Origin: an uncultured bacterium
GTDB lineage: Bacteria; CALINM01
Length of the DNA stretch: 8,464 nt
Direction: 5' to 3'
NCBI GenBank assembly: GCA_938045315.1
Contig: CALINM010000046.1
Location: forward strand, 1-8,464
Below the pieces are notes generated by a model. It did not search any database. It worked only from the letters and a program-made list of their open reading frames with translations, and was not told the DNA's origin. The position numbers and the translations under genes were made by a program. Positions 3 through 5,223 of the stretch are shown piece by piece. Within the stretch, counting starts at the first letter, position 1, and each line of letters opens with the position of its first letter.

Positions 3-113
3 AGTAACCCGGTTAATAAAGCAAAGGTTAGAGTTATTTTGAAAAAAGCCAATAATATTTCTGTTGGGAATGATGCAAGTGATAGTTTTTTCAATATAAA
101 TCCAGCACCATAA
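3..113 (+). CDS. C-terminal end of an exported protein with Ig-like module (5' end outside window)
   Basis: This frame is open from the left edge to the TAA at 111-113 and gives the last 36 residues of a protein whose start lies outside the window. It is recognised by its match to the C-terminus of the multicopper-oxidase locus just downstream. Both contain K-V-R-V-x-L or L-V-R-V-L-L, about a dozen residues later G-x-D-x-S-D, then F-x-(I/V)-N-P at the very end. The residues seen are therefore the final strands of a tandem Ig-like domain that also ends the downstream protease. The gene is on the same strand as the next gene and only 14 nt before its ATG, so the two were probably co-transcribed. 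The function of the whole protein cannot be told; a secreted or surface enzyme paralogous to its neighbours is the reasonable guess. Confidence 0.7.
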   Translation, partial: SNPVNKAKVRVILKKANNISVGNDASDSFFNINPAP

Positions 114-114
114 A

Positions 115-120
115 AAAGGG
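115..120 (+). promoter_or_regulatory. Shine-Dalgarno for the multicopper-oxidase locus
   Basis: AAGGGG lies 7 nt before the ATG at 128, directly after the stop codon of the preceding gene. The strong site and good spacing support 128 as the true start of the oxidase reading frame, and show that the 5' end of this broken locus is still well formed. Confidence 0.6.
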
Positions 121-127
121 GTAAACT

Positions 128-886
128 ATGAAGATGGTAAATAGATTTTTCTACTTCATATCTTTTTTTGCTATTATTTTAATATCTTTTGCTAATGCTG
201 ATGTAAGAGTTCAATGCCCTGGCGATACAAATGGGGATGCAGTAATTGATTCACCTGATCCAAATCATCCTGATGCTGTATGTATTCACCTTACAGCAGG
301 AGATGGTTTTGTTAAAATGGCCGATGGCACTGATTTATACACCTTTGGGTTTAAAAATGTAACAGGTATTCCAGTAAATCAAGTAATGACCGAAGGTATG
401 TTAAATGCTGATTTTCCTGCACCAACAATAAAGGTAAGAGAAGGTCAAGAAGTATATTTAACACTTACAAATGTAGGTATGGCCATGAGACCAGATCTTT
501 TTGATCCCCATTCAGTACACTGGCATGGATTCCCCAATGCCCCATCCATCTTTGATGGAGAACCCATGGCATCTGCAACTATAAATATGGGTAGTAGTTT
601 CACATATTATTATATTGCTCCATCTCCAGGAACTTACATGTACCATTGCCATGTAGAAGCAACTGAACATATGCAAATGGGGATGCTTGGTAATTTATAT
701 GTTACACCTCTTCAGGATGGAACTGTCATAGGAGGATGTTCATCAGCAAAATATGCATATAATGATGGGGATGGTTCAACGTGCTATGATATAGATTATC
801 CAGTCCAGATTCACGCCTTTGACTCAAATTTGGTGGTTATTTCTTTATGTGGCACTCCCATAAAATTATGTAAGAATATATCTTGA
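128..886 (+). pseudogene. Fragment 1: signal peptide and copper-binding N-terminal cupredoxin domain of a multicopper oxidase
   Basis: The 252-residue open frame begins with a Sec signal peptide (residues 1-24, cleavage likely after FANA). A Cys-flanked, Asp-rich segment (30-52) with a Ca-binding-like G-D-T-N-G-D-A run follows. The cupredoxin domain spans about 55-195. HWHG at 131-134 supplies a type 2/type 3 copper His pair. The block starting HCH at 173-175 and running through E-H-M-Q-M-G-M to 186 supplies the type 3 His residues and the type 1 Cys/His/Met set. The type 1 copper site therefore lies in the first domain, as in one group of bacterial three-domain oxidases. A second conserved block, Y-N-D-G-D-G-S-T to Y-P-V-Q-I, lies at 211-227. 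From about residue 234 the frame stops resembling the family and runs to a TGA, so the other copper-ligand domains are missing. This piece is the best-preserved part of the locus; a secreted single-domain product could be made but would lack the full trinuclear copper centre. Confidence 0.8.
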
Positions 887-1355
887 AAATAATTTGCCAG
901 TTCCAATATCAATAATAATACCTGGCCAATATCAAAAAAACGGTGGAGGTCCTGTTAGAAATTTTAGTGGAAGGGTTCAGTCATTAAGTCACGAAACGCC
1001 ACCGGGGAATACAATACCAGTGTTATATGAATGGGATGACTTTAAAGCAGGTACTTATCTTCTACATAGTGGTACAGATATGGCAATTCAAGTTCCTATG
1101 GGCTTATACTGTGTAGTAAAGAAAGATGTATCACCAAACCAAGCTTATGGTATAAATACTTCATATACAAATGATGCGGTAATTGTTTTTAGCGAAATTG
1201 ATCCTGATCTTAATATTGAGGTAAATAATAATCCTGGTGTTGGTACGATTAGTTCTATTGATTATAAACCCAAATATTATCTTATAAATGGTAGCTCCTT
1301 TTATCCTGGTTTTGAATCCATTGACATTGGTACTGCTGGTTCACTAAGCTTATAA
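864..1355 (+). pseudogene. Fragment 2: cupredoxin-like domain of a multicopper-oxidase-family protein, no start of its own
   Basis: The first possible start in this frame is a TTG at 894, but recognisable coding sequence begins earlier, at about 870, with V-R-I-Y-L-E-N-N-L followed by P-V-P-I-S-I-I-I-P-G-Q. The preceding stop in this frame is at 861-863. The continuation of protein similarity upstream of any start codon shows that this is a gene remnant. The domain ends with A-G-T-Y-L-L-H-S-G-T-D and V-P-M-G-L-Y, which occupy the place of the HCH...GM copper block in typical oxidases but have no Cys, so no type 1 site is expected here. Conserved S-E-I-D-P-D-L and K-Y-Y-L-I-N-G-S-S-F follow and lead into the third domain. 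The frame stops at TAA 1353-1355. Inserting one base near 1351-1352 restores S-L-I-R-I-V-N and joins it to the next fragment. Its style differs from fragment 1 and it may stem from a second, non-catalytic oxidase-like gene or domain set. Confidence 0.7.
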
Positions 1356-2464
1356 GAATTGTAAATAGTGGATTAAAAGATAGAGTCTTTTCGATGGGGG
1401 AAAATTACTTTAAGGTAATTGCCGAGGATGGTAATGAATACCCATATCATCAAAATAATTTAGCTCTTATTGTTGCGGCAGGACAGACGAAGGATGTATT
1501 ATTTACTCCAAACAATTCAGGCTACTATCCCATATTTGATAGAAAGTTAGGGTTGAAGAATTATTTGCAGACAATGGGAGGGATGTTAGCTTATTTGAGG
1601 GTAAAGAGCACAAATGAATTTACATTGAATGTGAGTAAAACTGGCACAGGTGCAGGAAAAGTTATAGTTTCAGGTATTCCTGGAGGAATAGATTGTGGTA
1701 ATGATTGTACGGAAACATATAATGAAAATACTGTTATTAGATTGAAGGCTATTCCAGATATTAATAGTATTTTTGTAGGATGGTCAGGGGGATGTACAGG
1801 AAATGGGGATTGTGAAATTACACTAAGTTCTAATATTACTGTAATAGCTAACTTTGCTCCCCTTACAAATATAATTGTTAATAATCCAAATGGTGGTGAG
1901 ATATTAAAAACAGGTTCTAACTATCTTATTAAATGGCAAGCTCCCTCCAATGCATCCCGTTTTTCTATTTTTTATTCCTTGAACAATGGTAGTAGTTGGA
2001 ATTTAATAACTAAGAATATTACTCGAAGAGATTATTTTTGGAATATACCTGCAATTAAAAATAATACCAAAAAAGCTAAAATAAAGGTTATAGGTTATAA
2101 CACTTCAAATGCACAAGTGGGGATTGATAGTTCTGATTTGCCCTTTAGTATTGAGGTGGTTAAAGTTACATCCCCTGACATATCAGGGTTTGTTTTTACT
2201 TCTGGATCACCATGGCAGATAACATGGGAAACATTTATGACTATTCAACCCGTTGCCAGTACTGTAATTCAATATTCAACAAATGGTGGGCTTACATGGA
2301 AAACTTTAGTAACACTTACTGGTAATCCTGGTAGTTATTCTGGGGTTGTTCCATCTGTTACAAAAACGACTACGAAGGGTTTAGTGAGAGTGCTTTTAAG
2401 AAATTAGAAAAATAGTGTTATAGGTTCTGATACAAGTGATAACCCTTTTACGGTAAATCCATAA
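1352..2464 (+). pseudogene. Fragment 3: last cupredoxin-like domain, InlB-type repeat and two Ig-like domains
   Basis: The open frame has a possible ATG at 1394, but homology begins at 1352 (I-R-I-V-N-S-G-L), upstream of it. Counting from 1394, residues 1-70 finish a cupredoxin-like domain (V-I-A-E-D-G-N near 8-14, and G-G-M-L-A-Y-L near 62-68). Residues 74-156 match the divergent InlB B-repeat type, with W-S-G-G-C, N-F-A-P and two Cys pairs (101/105, 134/140) that could form disulfides in the envelope. Residues 160-258 and 259 onward are two related Ig-like domains carrying N-P-N-G-G-E, I-K-W, N-N-G-S-S-W, then I-T-W, N-G-G-L-T-W-K and G-N-P-G-S-Y. TAG at 2405-2407 interrupts the last domain. 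The same frame goes on with V-I-G-S-D-T-S-D-N-P-F to the TAA at 2462-2464, which matches the end of the gene at 3-113. The stop is therefore a nonsense change, and the natural end is 2464. Confidence 0.75.
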
Positions 2465-2470
2465 GTTAGT

Positions 2471-2496
2471 GGGGGTTTTTAGAACTCCCTATTTTT
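2471..2496 (+). terminator. Rho-independent terminator after the oxidase locus
   Basis: GGGGGTT (2471-2477) pairs with AACTCCC (2483-2489), giving a 7-bp stem with one G-T wobble around the 5-nt loop TTTAG. TATTTTT follows. It lies 7 nt after the natural end of the oxidase locus. Transcription may be reduced here before the small exported-protein gene, whose ribosome site begins only a few bases later. Confidence 0.65.
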
Positions 2497-2515
2497 ATAA
2501 AAGGTTTTTTAATTG

Positions 2516-2965
2516 ATGAAAAAAATTTTTTTTAATTTTATCATTATTTTTTTGATAACCACTAATTTGCATGCCAAAAAAGTGGTTAATTTTAAAAACA
2601 ACACATTAACAATAAATAAAAAAAATGAAAATTTTGAATTGCTTAAAAGCCTGGGTATAGAAATAGTGTCCTTGAGACTAACTGGCTATGGAAAATTTAT
2701 AGACTTTAGATATAAAGTTATCGATATTGAAAAGGCATCAGAAATGTTTAATCCTAAAATCAAGTGCTATTTATTTGATCCTAAGACAGGTAATAAATTT
2801 TATATTCCCCATACACCGAAAGTAGGTTCTTTGCGCTCCTATGGTACGCCAGTTAAAAACAGAGTTTACTTTATGCTTTTCAGTAATAACGGTGTTTTAA
2901 AGAAAGGTAGTGCAGTAAATATTGCAATTGGCGATACTATCATTGAGAATTTAGTGATAGAATAA
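2516..2965 (+). CDS. Small conserved exported protein of unknown function
   Basis: The product is a 149-residue protein with a clear Sec signal peptide: M-K-K start, a hydrophobic Ile/Phe/Leu stretch to about residue 17, and likely cleavage after L-H-A near 20-21. The mature part of about 128 residues has no membrane segment and reads as a compact beta-rich domain. Its conserved-looking blocks are S-L-G-I-E-I-V-S-L-R-L-T, I-D-F-R-Y-K-V, Y-L-F-D-P-K-T-G, P-K-V-G-S-L-R and V-Y-F-M-L-F-S-N, ending I-G-D-T-I-I-E-N-L. From memory it resembles uncharacterised exported proteins of other bacteria, but no function can be assigned. It has one Cys and one His in the mature region, so no obvious metal or redox site. 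An in-frame TTG at 2513 is one codon upstream; AAAAGG at 2499-2504 is 8 nt from TTG and 11 nt from ATG, so either start is possible, and ATG followed by Lys-Lys is preferred. The protease gene follows after 5 nt, so the two are probably translated from one message. Confidence 0.8.
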   Translation: MKKIFFNFIIIFLITTNLHAKKVVNFKNNTLTINKKNENFELLKSLGIEIVSLRLTGYGKFIDFRYKVIDIEKASEMFNPKIKCYLFDPKTGNKFYIPHTPKVGSLRSYGTPVKNRVYFMLFSNNGVLKKGSAVNIAIGDTIIENLVIE

Positions 2966-2970
2966 TAATA

Positions 2971-5223
2971 ATGAAATTTTTAAAAACTCTTATACTCTCT
3001 TTTTATTTAATATTCTATTCTTTCAACGTATATGCTGGAACAATATCTTCAGAACTTGAGGAGTTTCTATCTTCAGCTGGAGAACAGGAATTAGTACCTG
3101 TAATTGTGAAATTTAAATCTTTTAAATTTAAAATAAAGGAAAGCAAGAAAAAAAGCAGGGTAGATTTGGTGAAAGTCCTGAAAAATGAACATGATAAATT
3201 GAAAGAAAAAATTAAAAGTACTTTTAAATTGTTTGGTATTAAACAAATTAACGATTTATGGCATATAGGTGGTTTTTCTTTTTTAGCAAAGCCTGAATTA
3301 ATAAGAAAAATTTCTTATTTATACGATGATGCTGAAATTAAATTAGATAGGACAATTGACATGCCTTCTTTTGAAGCTACTGACATAAATACAAATGAAT
3401 GGAATATTGATATCATTGGTGCTCCGAAACTTTGGAGTTTAAACATTAAGGGACAAGGGGTTGTGGTTGCAAATTTAGATACTGGTGTTGATTATTCTCA
3501 TCCTGATTTATATCATAAATGGAGGGGAGGAAATAATAGCTGGTTTGATCCTTATGGTATTTATTCTCAACCCCATGATGTAAACGGTCATGGCACAGGT
3601 ACTATGGGAATAATAGTTGGTGGAGATTTTAGTGGGACTAATATTGGTATTGCACCAGAATCTAAATGGATAGCTGTAAAGATTTTTGATGATTCAGGTA
3701 AGGCACAGATAAGCAAAATACATCAAGCTTTTGGTTGGATTTTAGATCCCGATGGTAATCCAGATACTGATGATGCACCTCATATAGTTAATAATTCTTG
3801 GGGATTTATAGAAATAAATCAATGTAATAATGAGTTTGAAGATGATATCGAGATACTGAATGATGCAGGTATTGCAGTAGTTTTTTCTGCTGGAAATTCA
3901 GGGCCACAAAAGCCATCAAATAGTAGCCCAGCTAATAATAGAGGGGCATTTTCAGTAGGGTCTGTTGATAATAGTCTAAACATTTCATATTTTAGTTCGA
4001 GGGGGCCATCAGTTTGTACTTATAATATTTTTCCCCATGTTGTTGCGCCTGGGAGTTATATAAAAACAACGGATCTCTTCTTAAATGGGGCAAAGCAAAA
4101 TTTCTATACAATTGTATCAGGCACTTCTTTTGCATCACCCCATGTTGCAGGTGCTCTAGCATTACTTAAATCTGCTTTCCCTGAAAAATCCATTCGAGAA
4201 TTGATTAACGCCATAAAAATTACCTCGATAGACTTAGGTGAGTATGGTTCAGATAACGATTATGGTGCTGGAATAATAAATGTTAAAGATGCCTATAATT
4301 ATCTGGCTGATATACCTGAAATAACGGTTGACAGGAATTCACATACTTTTGTTAAAACATTAATTAACCAGAATTCTTCTGAAGCTACTTTCACTCTTAA
4401 AAACAATGGTTATGGCAACTTATTTATAAATCTGATAAGAATAGAAGATGATGTAAACTTTTCATTAACCTTTGATAGTTGCTCGGGCTTTAATTTAAAC
4501 TCTAAAGAGTATTGTTCAATAAAAATAATATTTAATCCAAAAATTACGGGTATTATTAGTACAAAACTTTTTATTCACTCCAATGATCCTTTTACACCTG
4601 AAAAGATTTTAAATATATCTGGAATAGGCATACTGGAAAGGTTAAGAATATTAACACCTAATGGCGGGGAATCATTAACGGCTGGTTCTTATGTTGAGAT
4701 TAAATGGGCAGAAACAAAAGATACCGAATTTTATACAATACAACTAAGCAAAAATAATGGTTTTTCTTGGACTACTATCGCTAAATTTGTGAAAGGCAAT
4801 AGCTATAATTGGATAGTACCAACAGATATTTATAATCGAACTAAGTGTCTAATAAGAATTTTAGGTTATGATTACAGAAAAAAATATATTACTAAAGACA
4901 TTTCTGACGCTTCCTTTTCTATAGTTGTAATAAGAATTAATATGTCAGTAAGTAAAGATCTTATACTTAATGAAAGTTTGTTAAGAATAAGCTGGGATAC
5001 CTATCAGTTAATAAGGCCTGTGAATATAGTGGAGATATATTTTACTTTAAATGGTGGTTTATCTTGGAAAAGAATAGGACAAATGGAGGGTAACCCTGGG
5101 TATTATGATTGGAAAATAATCCAAAAACCTTCAAATAAATGCTATGTTAAAATAGTTTTTAGAGATATTAATAATATAATAATTGGCACAGTAAAAAATA
5201 GTCTTCCCTTTTCCATAATTTAG
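2971..5223 (+). CDS. Secreted subtilisin-family (S8) serine protease with choice-of-anchor D-like and tandem Ig-like domains
   Basis: This is a complete 750-residue preproprotease. A Sec signal peptide covers 1-22 (cleavage after V-Y-A). A charged, helix-rich propeptide of inhibitor-I9 type covers about 25-130. The S8 catalytic domain spans about 143-445: Asp170 in L-D-T-G-V-D, His207 in G-H-G-T-G, oxyanion Asn309 in S-A-G-N-S-G, and Ser386 in S-G-T-S-F-A-S-P-H-V-A-G. The order and the N-N-S-W-G motif (274-278) resemble the bacillopeptidase F-like group. The usual HGTH is HGTG here, which leaves the catalytic His in place. Residues 449-555 resemble a choice-of-anchor D/ASH-type beta domain with a Cys pair (504/515) and H-S-N-D-P. 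Residues 557-750 are two Ig-like domains like those ending the oxidase locus, the second less conserved. All catalytic residues are present, so an active extracellular or surface enzyme is expected; its substrate is unknown. The ATG is 5 nt after the previous stop with no strong ribosome site, suggesting translational coupling. Confidence 0.9.
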   Translation: MKFLKTLILSFYLIFYSFNVYAGTISSELEEFLSSAGEQELVPVIVKFKSFKFKIKESKKKSRVDLVKVLKNEHDKLKEKIKSTFKLFGIKQINDLWHIGGFSFLAKPELIRKISYLYDDAEIKLDRTIDMPSFEATDINTNEWNIDIIGAPKLWSLNIKGQGVVVANLDTGVDYSHPDLYHKWRGGNNSWFDPYGIYSQPHDVNGHGTGTMGIIVGGDFSGTNIGIAPESKWIAVKIFDDSGKAQISKIHQAFGWILDPDGNPDTDDAPHIVNNSWGFIEINQCNNEFEDDIEILNDAGIAVVFSAGNSGPQKPSNSSPANNRGAFSVGSVDNSLNISYFSSRGPSVCTYNIFPHVVAPGSYIKTTDLFLNGAKQNFYTIVSGTSFASPHVAGALALLKSAFPEKSIRELINAIKITSIDLGEYGSDNDYGAGIINVKDAYNYLADIPEITVDRNSHTFVKTLINQNSSEATFTLKNNGYGNLFINLIRIEDDVNFSLTFDSCSGFNLNSKEYCSIKIIFNPKITGIISTKLFIHSNDPFTPEKILNISGIGILERLRILTPNGGESLTAGSYVEIKWAETKDTEFYTIQLSKNNGFSWTTIAKFVKGNSYNWIVPTDIYNRTKCLIRILGYDYRKKYITKDISDASFSIVVIRINMSVSKDLILNESLLRISWDTYQLIRPVNIVEIYFTLNGGLSWKRIGQMEGNPGYYDWKIIQKPSNKCYVKIVFRDINNIIIGTVKNSLPFSII

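Follow-up and report, generated by a model that had tools for sequence, protein, structure and literature searches.

Why do neighbouring genes for exported proteins, one of them an oxidase and another a protease, end in the same tandem immunoglobulin-like (Ig) module? The locus that raises this question lies in the window, by which we mean the whole 8,464-base stretch of DNA analysed here, which is the entire contig C46 of a 1.86 Mb draft genome. The left part of the window carries, on the plus strand, a gene tail (3-113), a broken multicopper oxidase region (128-2461), the gene of a small exported protein (2516-2965) and the intact gene of an exported subtilase, the protease in question (2971-5223). 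We propose, at a probability of roughly one in two, that the module is an interchangeable C-terminal attachment domain, serving docking or retention, which co-localises the exported products of a single gene cluster. We favour this attachment role because unrelated domains recur in the same three places in corresponding clusters of other genomes. That such a tag binds something, and what it binds, we infer.

C-terminal tags in a conserved oxidase cluster

The window genes correspond to members of a conserved cluster with the gene order UP, A, B, C, then often ORPH and PROT. UP is a protein of about 1,630-2,090 residues with SdrD_B-like, PL4-type and beta-helix domains, A, B and C are multicopper oxidase genes, ORPH encodes a small exported protein and PROT the subtilase. 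We compared 19 loci, comprising those of 16 carriers (G310 included) obtained by searching 395 genomes of one other phylum for A, together with those of G221 and G026; one genome, G537, has two clusters. Oxidase A carries HxHG and HCH/HSH-type motifs in 19 of 19 loci, and B carries an HSH-type motif in 19 of 19 and HxHG in 18; C lacks HxHG throughout and lacks HCH/HSH in all loci but one. At the level of sequence, this splitting of copper motifs, with A and B bearing them and C almost none, suggests a multi-subunit oxidase. The window genes for A, C, ORPH and PROT match cluster members in the same order, B is missing, and UP is present as a tail only, at the contig start. In the other clusters the end of UP, where it is on the contig, directly precedes A (the exception is G410, with a gap of about 3 kb), and for this reason the tail at 3-113 is most simply read, by its position, as the end of UP, the body of UP lying off the contig.

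C-terminal BLAST comparison of whole proteins from the 19 clusters showed that the tags are not of one kind. At least two of UP, C and PROT share one C-terminal module in eight clusters, and its type varies between dockerin, DUF4214, DUF5648, a short Cys tail and the Kre9 Ig module. All three proteins end in a dockerin-like module in G310, in DUF4214 in G682, and in a Gly/Ser-rich tail with Cys-Phe-Ile/Val in G534; in the window all three positions (UP by position, C and PROT) end in the Kre9 Ig module. UP and C end in dockerin repeats in G684, where PROT has a related-looking short end, in DUF5648 in G410, and in Kre9 Ig repeats in G585 and G670, the former with the same order of oxidase C, InlB repeat and Ig repeats as in the window. 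A, B and ORPH have native ends, with no tag, in every cluster. The ends of UP and C match in 7 of 19 same-cluster pairs versus 4 of the 342 pairs drawn from different clusters, a result equalled in 0 of 200,000 permutations; the permutation p values were 0.004 for C with PROT and 0.04 for UP with PROT. When the Cys-tail pattern was added, UP and C matched in 8 of 19 clusters, with p<5e-6 for UP-C, 0.0007 for C-PROT and 0.007 for UP-PROT. No other open reading frame with the cluster's tag type was found in 400 kb around the G310 cluster or in 238 kb around the G684 cluster, and around the G670 and G585 clusters there was one further protein with Ig repeats. The UP protein of G502 ends in a choice-of-anchor Q domain (26.2 bits, cut-off 25), which fits an attachment role, as do the choice-of-anchor D domains that precede the Ig module in two proteins described below.

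In the mechanism that we envisage, a beta-sandwich pair of Ig-like or fibronectin type III-like fold, copied as a unit, is placed at the C-terminus of UP, of the ligand-less oxidase C and of PROT, three cluster members without copper motifs. After Sec export, the tag would fix UP, C and PROT either to the outer cell envelope or to a partner that they share, so that the A and B subunits, which bear copper, act at that site; in other lineages unrelated domains would do the same job on the same proteins. More tentatively, the cluster may encode a split multicopper-oxidase assembly, conserved and extracellular, whose attachment code is interchangeable, in which UP, C and PROT change tag together to unrelated types and A, B and ORPH stay untagged; such a code would imply a common docking function, with the tag type being an adaptor only.

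Several points weigh against an attachment role. No binding partner, sortase or cohesin was identified for the tag, and the module is also seen standing alone in this genome and inside many proteins from other phyla. In about half of the clusters the tests recognise no shared tag, and the permutation test counts G585 and G670, which belong to the same family, as independent though the clusters are related by descent. In G682 the tags of UP and C reach 90% identity, a likeness that local duplication would equally produce. No function is known for DUF4214 or DUF5648.

The main rival explanation invokes local duplication of C-termini between neighbours. Here the modules would be passive spacers or stabilising domains, spread among adjacent genes by local duplication or gene conversion, and their sharing would reflect proximity; we consider this unlikely, though it deserves serious weight. 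The 90% identity in G682 and the 57% identity between the UP and C tags of G670 are in its favour, as is the fact that elsewhere the Ig domain is commonly an internal tandem repeat. It accounts less readily for the absence of tags on A and B, whose genes are situated between those of UP and C, and it has also to contend with the placing of unrelated domain types at the same three positions in unrelated lineages.

The Ig module in the window and in its genome

Two complete copies of the module are present in the window, at 1868-2461 in the oxidase and at 4639-5220 in the protease, and they lie among the following features.

3-113, plus strand: C-terminal tail, the last ~30 residues of a second Ig repeat (profile match), in a gene truncated where the contig begins; judged by its position the end of UP, 14 bases upstream of the start of A.
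128-860, plus strand: remnant of multicopper oxidase A with signal peptide and first cupredoxin part, motifs HWHG and HCHxEATEH (Cu-oxidase_3, 1.3e-17; 64% identity to G221 A over 203-823); similarity to A stops near 823.
870-1867, plus strand: remnant of multicopper oxidase C with a reading-frame change near 1349 (45% and 37-38% identity to G221 C in two frames) and an InlB B-repeat (Flg_new_2, 2.4e-7) at its end.
1868-2155, plus strand: Ig repeat 1 of the oxidase C tag (alignment, model).
2156-2461, plus strand: Ig repeat 2 of the oxidase C tag (profile match, alignment, model), interrupted by an in-frame TAG at 2405-2407, with homology continuing to 2461.
2516-2965, plus strand: ORPH, the small exported cluster protein that is never tagged (38.5% identity to residues 444-551 of G221 C; 30-44% to ORPH of G310 and G026).
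2971-5223, plus strand: PROT, an intact subtilase with signal peptide, Peptidase_S8 (residues 161-434; 8e-51), a choice-of-anchor D-like domain (447-540; choice_anch_D 2e-8, below cut-off) and the Ig pair (41% identity over 467 residues to G310 PROT).
4639-4926, plus strand: Ig repeat 1 of the subtilase tag (Kre9_KNH match, AlphaFold model).
4927-5220, plus strand: Ig repeat 2 of the subtilase tag, with the GxDxSD stretch lost (alignment, model).

Downstream of the subtilase gene lies typA, and the opposite strand carries an RlmI-type rRNA methyltransferase gene and the end of a dGTPase-type gene.

The oxidase and protease ends are homologous across the whole two-repeat module (59 of 173 residues identical, E=1e-32), and at 34% identity the two are therefore not recent duplicates, which counts against spread by local duplication. 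The first and second repeats, D1 and D2, are related to each other (z 5.8 to 20, with 0 of 500 shuffles as good), and in trees they form separate groups, with a D2 branch support of 0.965 (FastTree) and 95.8/91 (IQ-TREE), so the pair has been copied as a unit. The stretch at 3-113 encodes SNPVNKAKVRVILKKANNISVGNDASDSFFNINPAP, which represents only the final strands of the second repeat; against a profile from which it had been excluded this piece reaches 24.9 bits, compared with 10.4 for the best of 20,000 shuffles, and its homology is therefore sound. The first-pass annotation of this DNA had described one module at the ends of three genes, a description that holds for the oxidase and the protease and, in reduced form, for the end of the second repeat at 3-113. 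The first-repeat motifs that it also placed at 3-113 are impossible, and an N-terminal domain of this protein, said to differ completely from the others, is not visible, as contig C46 begins at base 1. The end at 3-113 had been called closely similar to that of the oxidase; the two share 45% identity (13 of 29), but the fragment is closer to the copy on contig C54 (17 of 32). It was correctly noted that the protease copy has lost GxDxSD, in so far as this concerns its second repeat; the first keeps DxSD. The copy C68 and its ortholog likewise have a second repeat without GxDxSD.

A profile of the genome's copies matches five places in the 1.86 Mb, three of them in the window cluster and the others C54 and C68, and on this count, together with the absence of further dockerin-type tags around the G310 and G684 clusters, a genome-wide sorting tag was rejected. 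C54 (L010:8539-9231) consists of a signal peptide, the Ig pair and a 15-residue tail, with nothing else, and its gene overlaps the start region of that of a 687-residue exported protein of no assigned family. C68 (L011:11503-12696) is exported and combines one CxxCH motif and an fn3 domain with a C-terminal Ig module. Its ortholog in the same-genus genome G001 (L016:604-2082), with fn3 domain(s) and a C-terminal Ig module, indicates a kind of protein conserved in the genus. In G001, a beta-propeller protein (DUF7948, SBBP) has a choice-of-anchor D domain (55.8 bits, cut-off 45) followed by the Ig module. These cases resemble the choice-of-anchor domains of NCBIfam (D and Q) in that a D domain directly precedes the Ig module, above cut-off in the propeller and below it in the window subtilase; they differ in that the anchor here is the Kre9 Ig pair, and D-like domains also occur without the pair in the genus. 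A further G001 protein of 1,874 residues (C161, L068:3259-8880), whose gene adjoins a secretin gene, has several choice-of-anchor D-like repeats and no Ig module.

Within the genus, 5 of 6 complete copies end no more than 2 residues from the C-terminus or from a stop that cuts the copy. The Ig domain itself was found in 26 of 98 sampled genomes (its own and the same-genus genome included), and in other phyla it is mostly an internal tandem repeat. A profile search of the host and related genomes, as had been suggested, thus supports a C-terminal position for most copies of the genus, but the expectation of a module confined to C-termini did not survive: the stand-alone copy after a signal peptide in C54 and the internal copies of other phyla led us to reject any such strict restriction. 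No copy was seen in an evidently cytoplasmic protein, and a protein search found no match on plasmids. A single-sequence scan of the genome contigs found no relative, and an alignment scan of them gave nine weak matches, mostly to long repeat proteins.

Family and fold of the module

Repeat 1 of the protease (27.8 bits) and the C54 copy (33 bits) exceed the cut-off of 24.6 of the Pfam family Kre9_KNH (PF10342), which is matched by 16 of 19 aligned relatives at E<=0.1. Neither oxidase repeat, nor repeat 2 of the protease, matches Kre9_KNH when scanned alone, although the oxidase repeats are homologous to copies that do. Judged by these sequence comparisons, the window module is a tandem Kre9/KNH-type Ig pair. 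The papers that we found on PF10342 concern fungi. The family likeness extends to an Ig-like beta-sandwich fold predicted in both window copies, and a difference is that in the window's genome the domain always forms a two-repeat unit. The AlphaFold models of the two copies are confident (predicted local distance difference test scores of 91 and 96; the TAG in the oxidase copy replaced by a placeholder residue), and each predicts two sandwiches with the same strand order, in agreement with the two-Ig fold first proposed.

The best solved matches of both copies are the Fn3-like modules of Clostridium thermocellum cellobiohydrolase CbhA (3pe9 and 3pdd; Z 10.3 and 10.6 over 84-85 residues), which differ in sequence (12-18% identity) and in being located inside a cellulase. 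That this nearest solved fold is a linker module is what a passive spacer would predict. The fold class also includes carbohydrate-binding modules (8wae is among the matches, Z 8.8), which is relevant to the possibility that the module binds an external substrate, whether polysaccharide, protein or mineral, and brings the enzymes there. The domains of polysaccharide-lyase type and of beta-helix type in UP would accord with such a role, but the exchange of the module for a dockerin or a short Cys tail, both attachment-type parts, does not fit it, and we regard substrate binding as doubtful.

We also considered whether a type II-like secretion machine might recognise the module as an export signal. 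The host genus has several secretins and GspF- or pseudopilin-like genes, and in G502 (L104:14546-16799) genes for a type II secretion/type IV pilus ATPase (T2SSE) and F-protein (T2SSF) lie directly downstream of the subtilase gene. However, A, B and the untagged members of other clusters would have to be exported without the tag, the tags are structurally unrelated, and five places in the genome, three of them in one cluster, are few for a general signal; we therefore judge this explanation very improbable. The tripartite plan of LPXTG, PEP-CTERM, GlyGly-CTERM and MYXO-CTERM sorting signals was not found at the module ends (...NSLPFSII, ...DNPFTVNP and ...FFNINPAP), which have neither a helix nor a basic cluster. 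The NCBIfam models for C-terminal sorting by the type IX secretion system matched neither the protease copy nor 18 aligned relatives, and SprA_N, part of the machinery of that system, had no match in G000, G001, G002 or any control genome. Domains of the Ig module's kind are common, and it is improbable that export alone is what the module signals. Of the common role that had been suggested for the module, the attachment-like part is favoured by the same positions being tagged, with a type constant within clusters and different between them, and the part concerning an export signal by itself is unlikely.

Relation to known systems

Homologous exported proteins, S8 proteases included, are known to carry alternative C-terminal tails as a suffix, such as GlyGly-CTERM, PEP-CTERM or LPXTG (PMC3237569). 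The window tags differ from these in being folded domains without a transmembrane helix or basic end, and in that several products of one cluster change tail together. Known swaps of C-terminal sorting tails thus concern homologs of single proteins, whereas here the products of a cluster appear to swap together. Joint swapping of this kind may make it possible to find, from sequence, attachment domains whose function is unknown (Kre9 Ig, DUF4214, DUF5648), and to match them with their targets.

The cluster itself is widespread, little studied and exported, with three adjacent multicopper oxidase genes, and may act on metals outside the cell. According to PMC12016527 and PMC5566968, the latter of which noted the gene cluster, Slit_1812-1818 of Sideroxydans lithotrophicus ES-1 encodes three adjacent extracellular cupredoxin proteins. 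Two of them have copper motifs; the third is larger, has none and bears domains resembling adhesins and polysaccharide lyases. The likeness lies in the three-cupredoxin arrangement as these papers describe it; as differences, Slit_1812-1818 includes SCO1/SenC and a cytochrome gene, and the available text mentions no subtilase for it. PMC12016527 reports greater abundance of the cluster late in cultures grown on solid magnetite. If the two clusters are related, by analogy the tags may hold a metal-oxidising assembly at the surface; the greater abundance of a perhaps related cluster on a solid mineral would also suit a substrate-binding module.

The oxidase locus in this genome

Alignment to intact A, B and C genes led us to reject the view of the three oxidase open reading frames as separate genes. 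Positions 128-823 match A (up to 64% identity) and 870-1867 match C (37-45%); the locus lacks gene B, the end of A and the start of C. The A/C junction, between about 823 and 870, is out of frame, the oxidase is split between two reading frames, with the frame changing twice, and the in-frame TAG lies within the module; the neighbours of the broken oxidase are intact. The locus looks like a decaying gene, a putative pseudogene in which the front of A is joined to the back of C, although the junction may have arisen through faulty assembly. The genome yielded no second match to the A piece. The bearers of the module had been taken for unrelated enzymes; they are instead members of one conserved cluster, and the oxidase member appears to be a pseudogene here. 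Two related genomes were compared, one of the same genus and one of the same family. In these, the sole match to A is one cupredoxin domain of another oxidase, at 38%, while ORPH has no match and the subtilase has partial matches only. With the A-B-C part apparently decayed in this genome, at most the subtilase and perhaps UP would still use the tag.

Three minor observations concern single members of the cluster elsewhere. In G221 (L119:9834-11486), oxidase C continues at its end into a fused ORPH, a hint that the two act together. In G567 (L105:1803-3296), a gene for a di-haem cytochrome c peroxidase (CCP_MauG) adjoins that of the subtilase. In G534 (L106:7076-7345), a putative copper-binding motif of MopE type immediately precedes the Cys tail of the subtilase.

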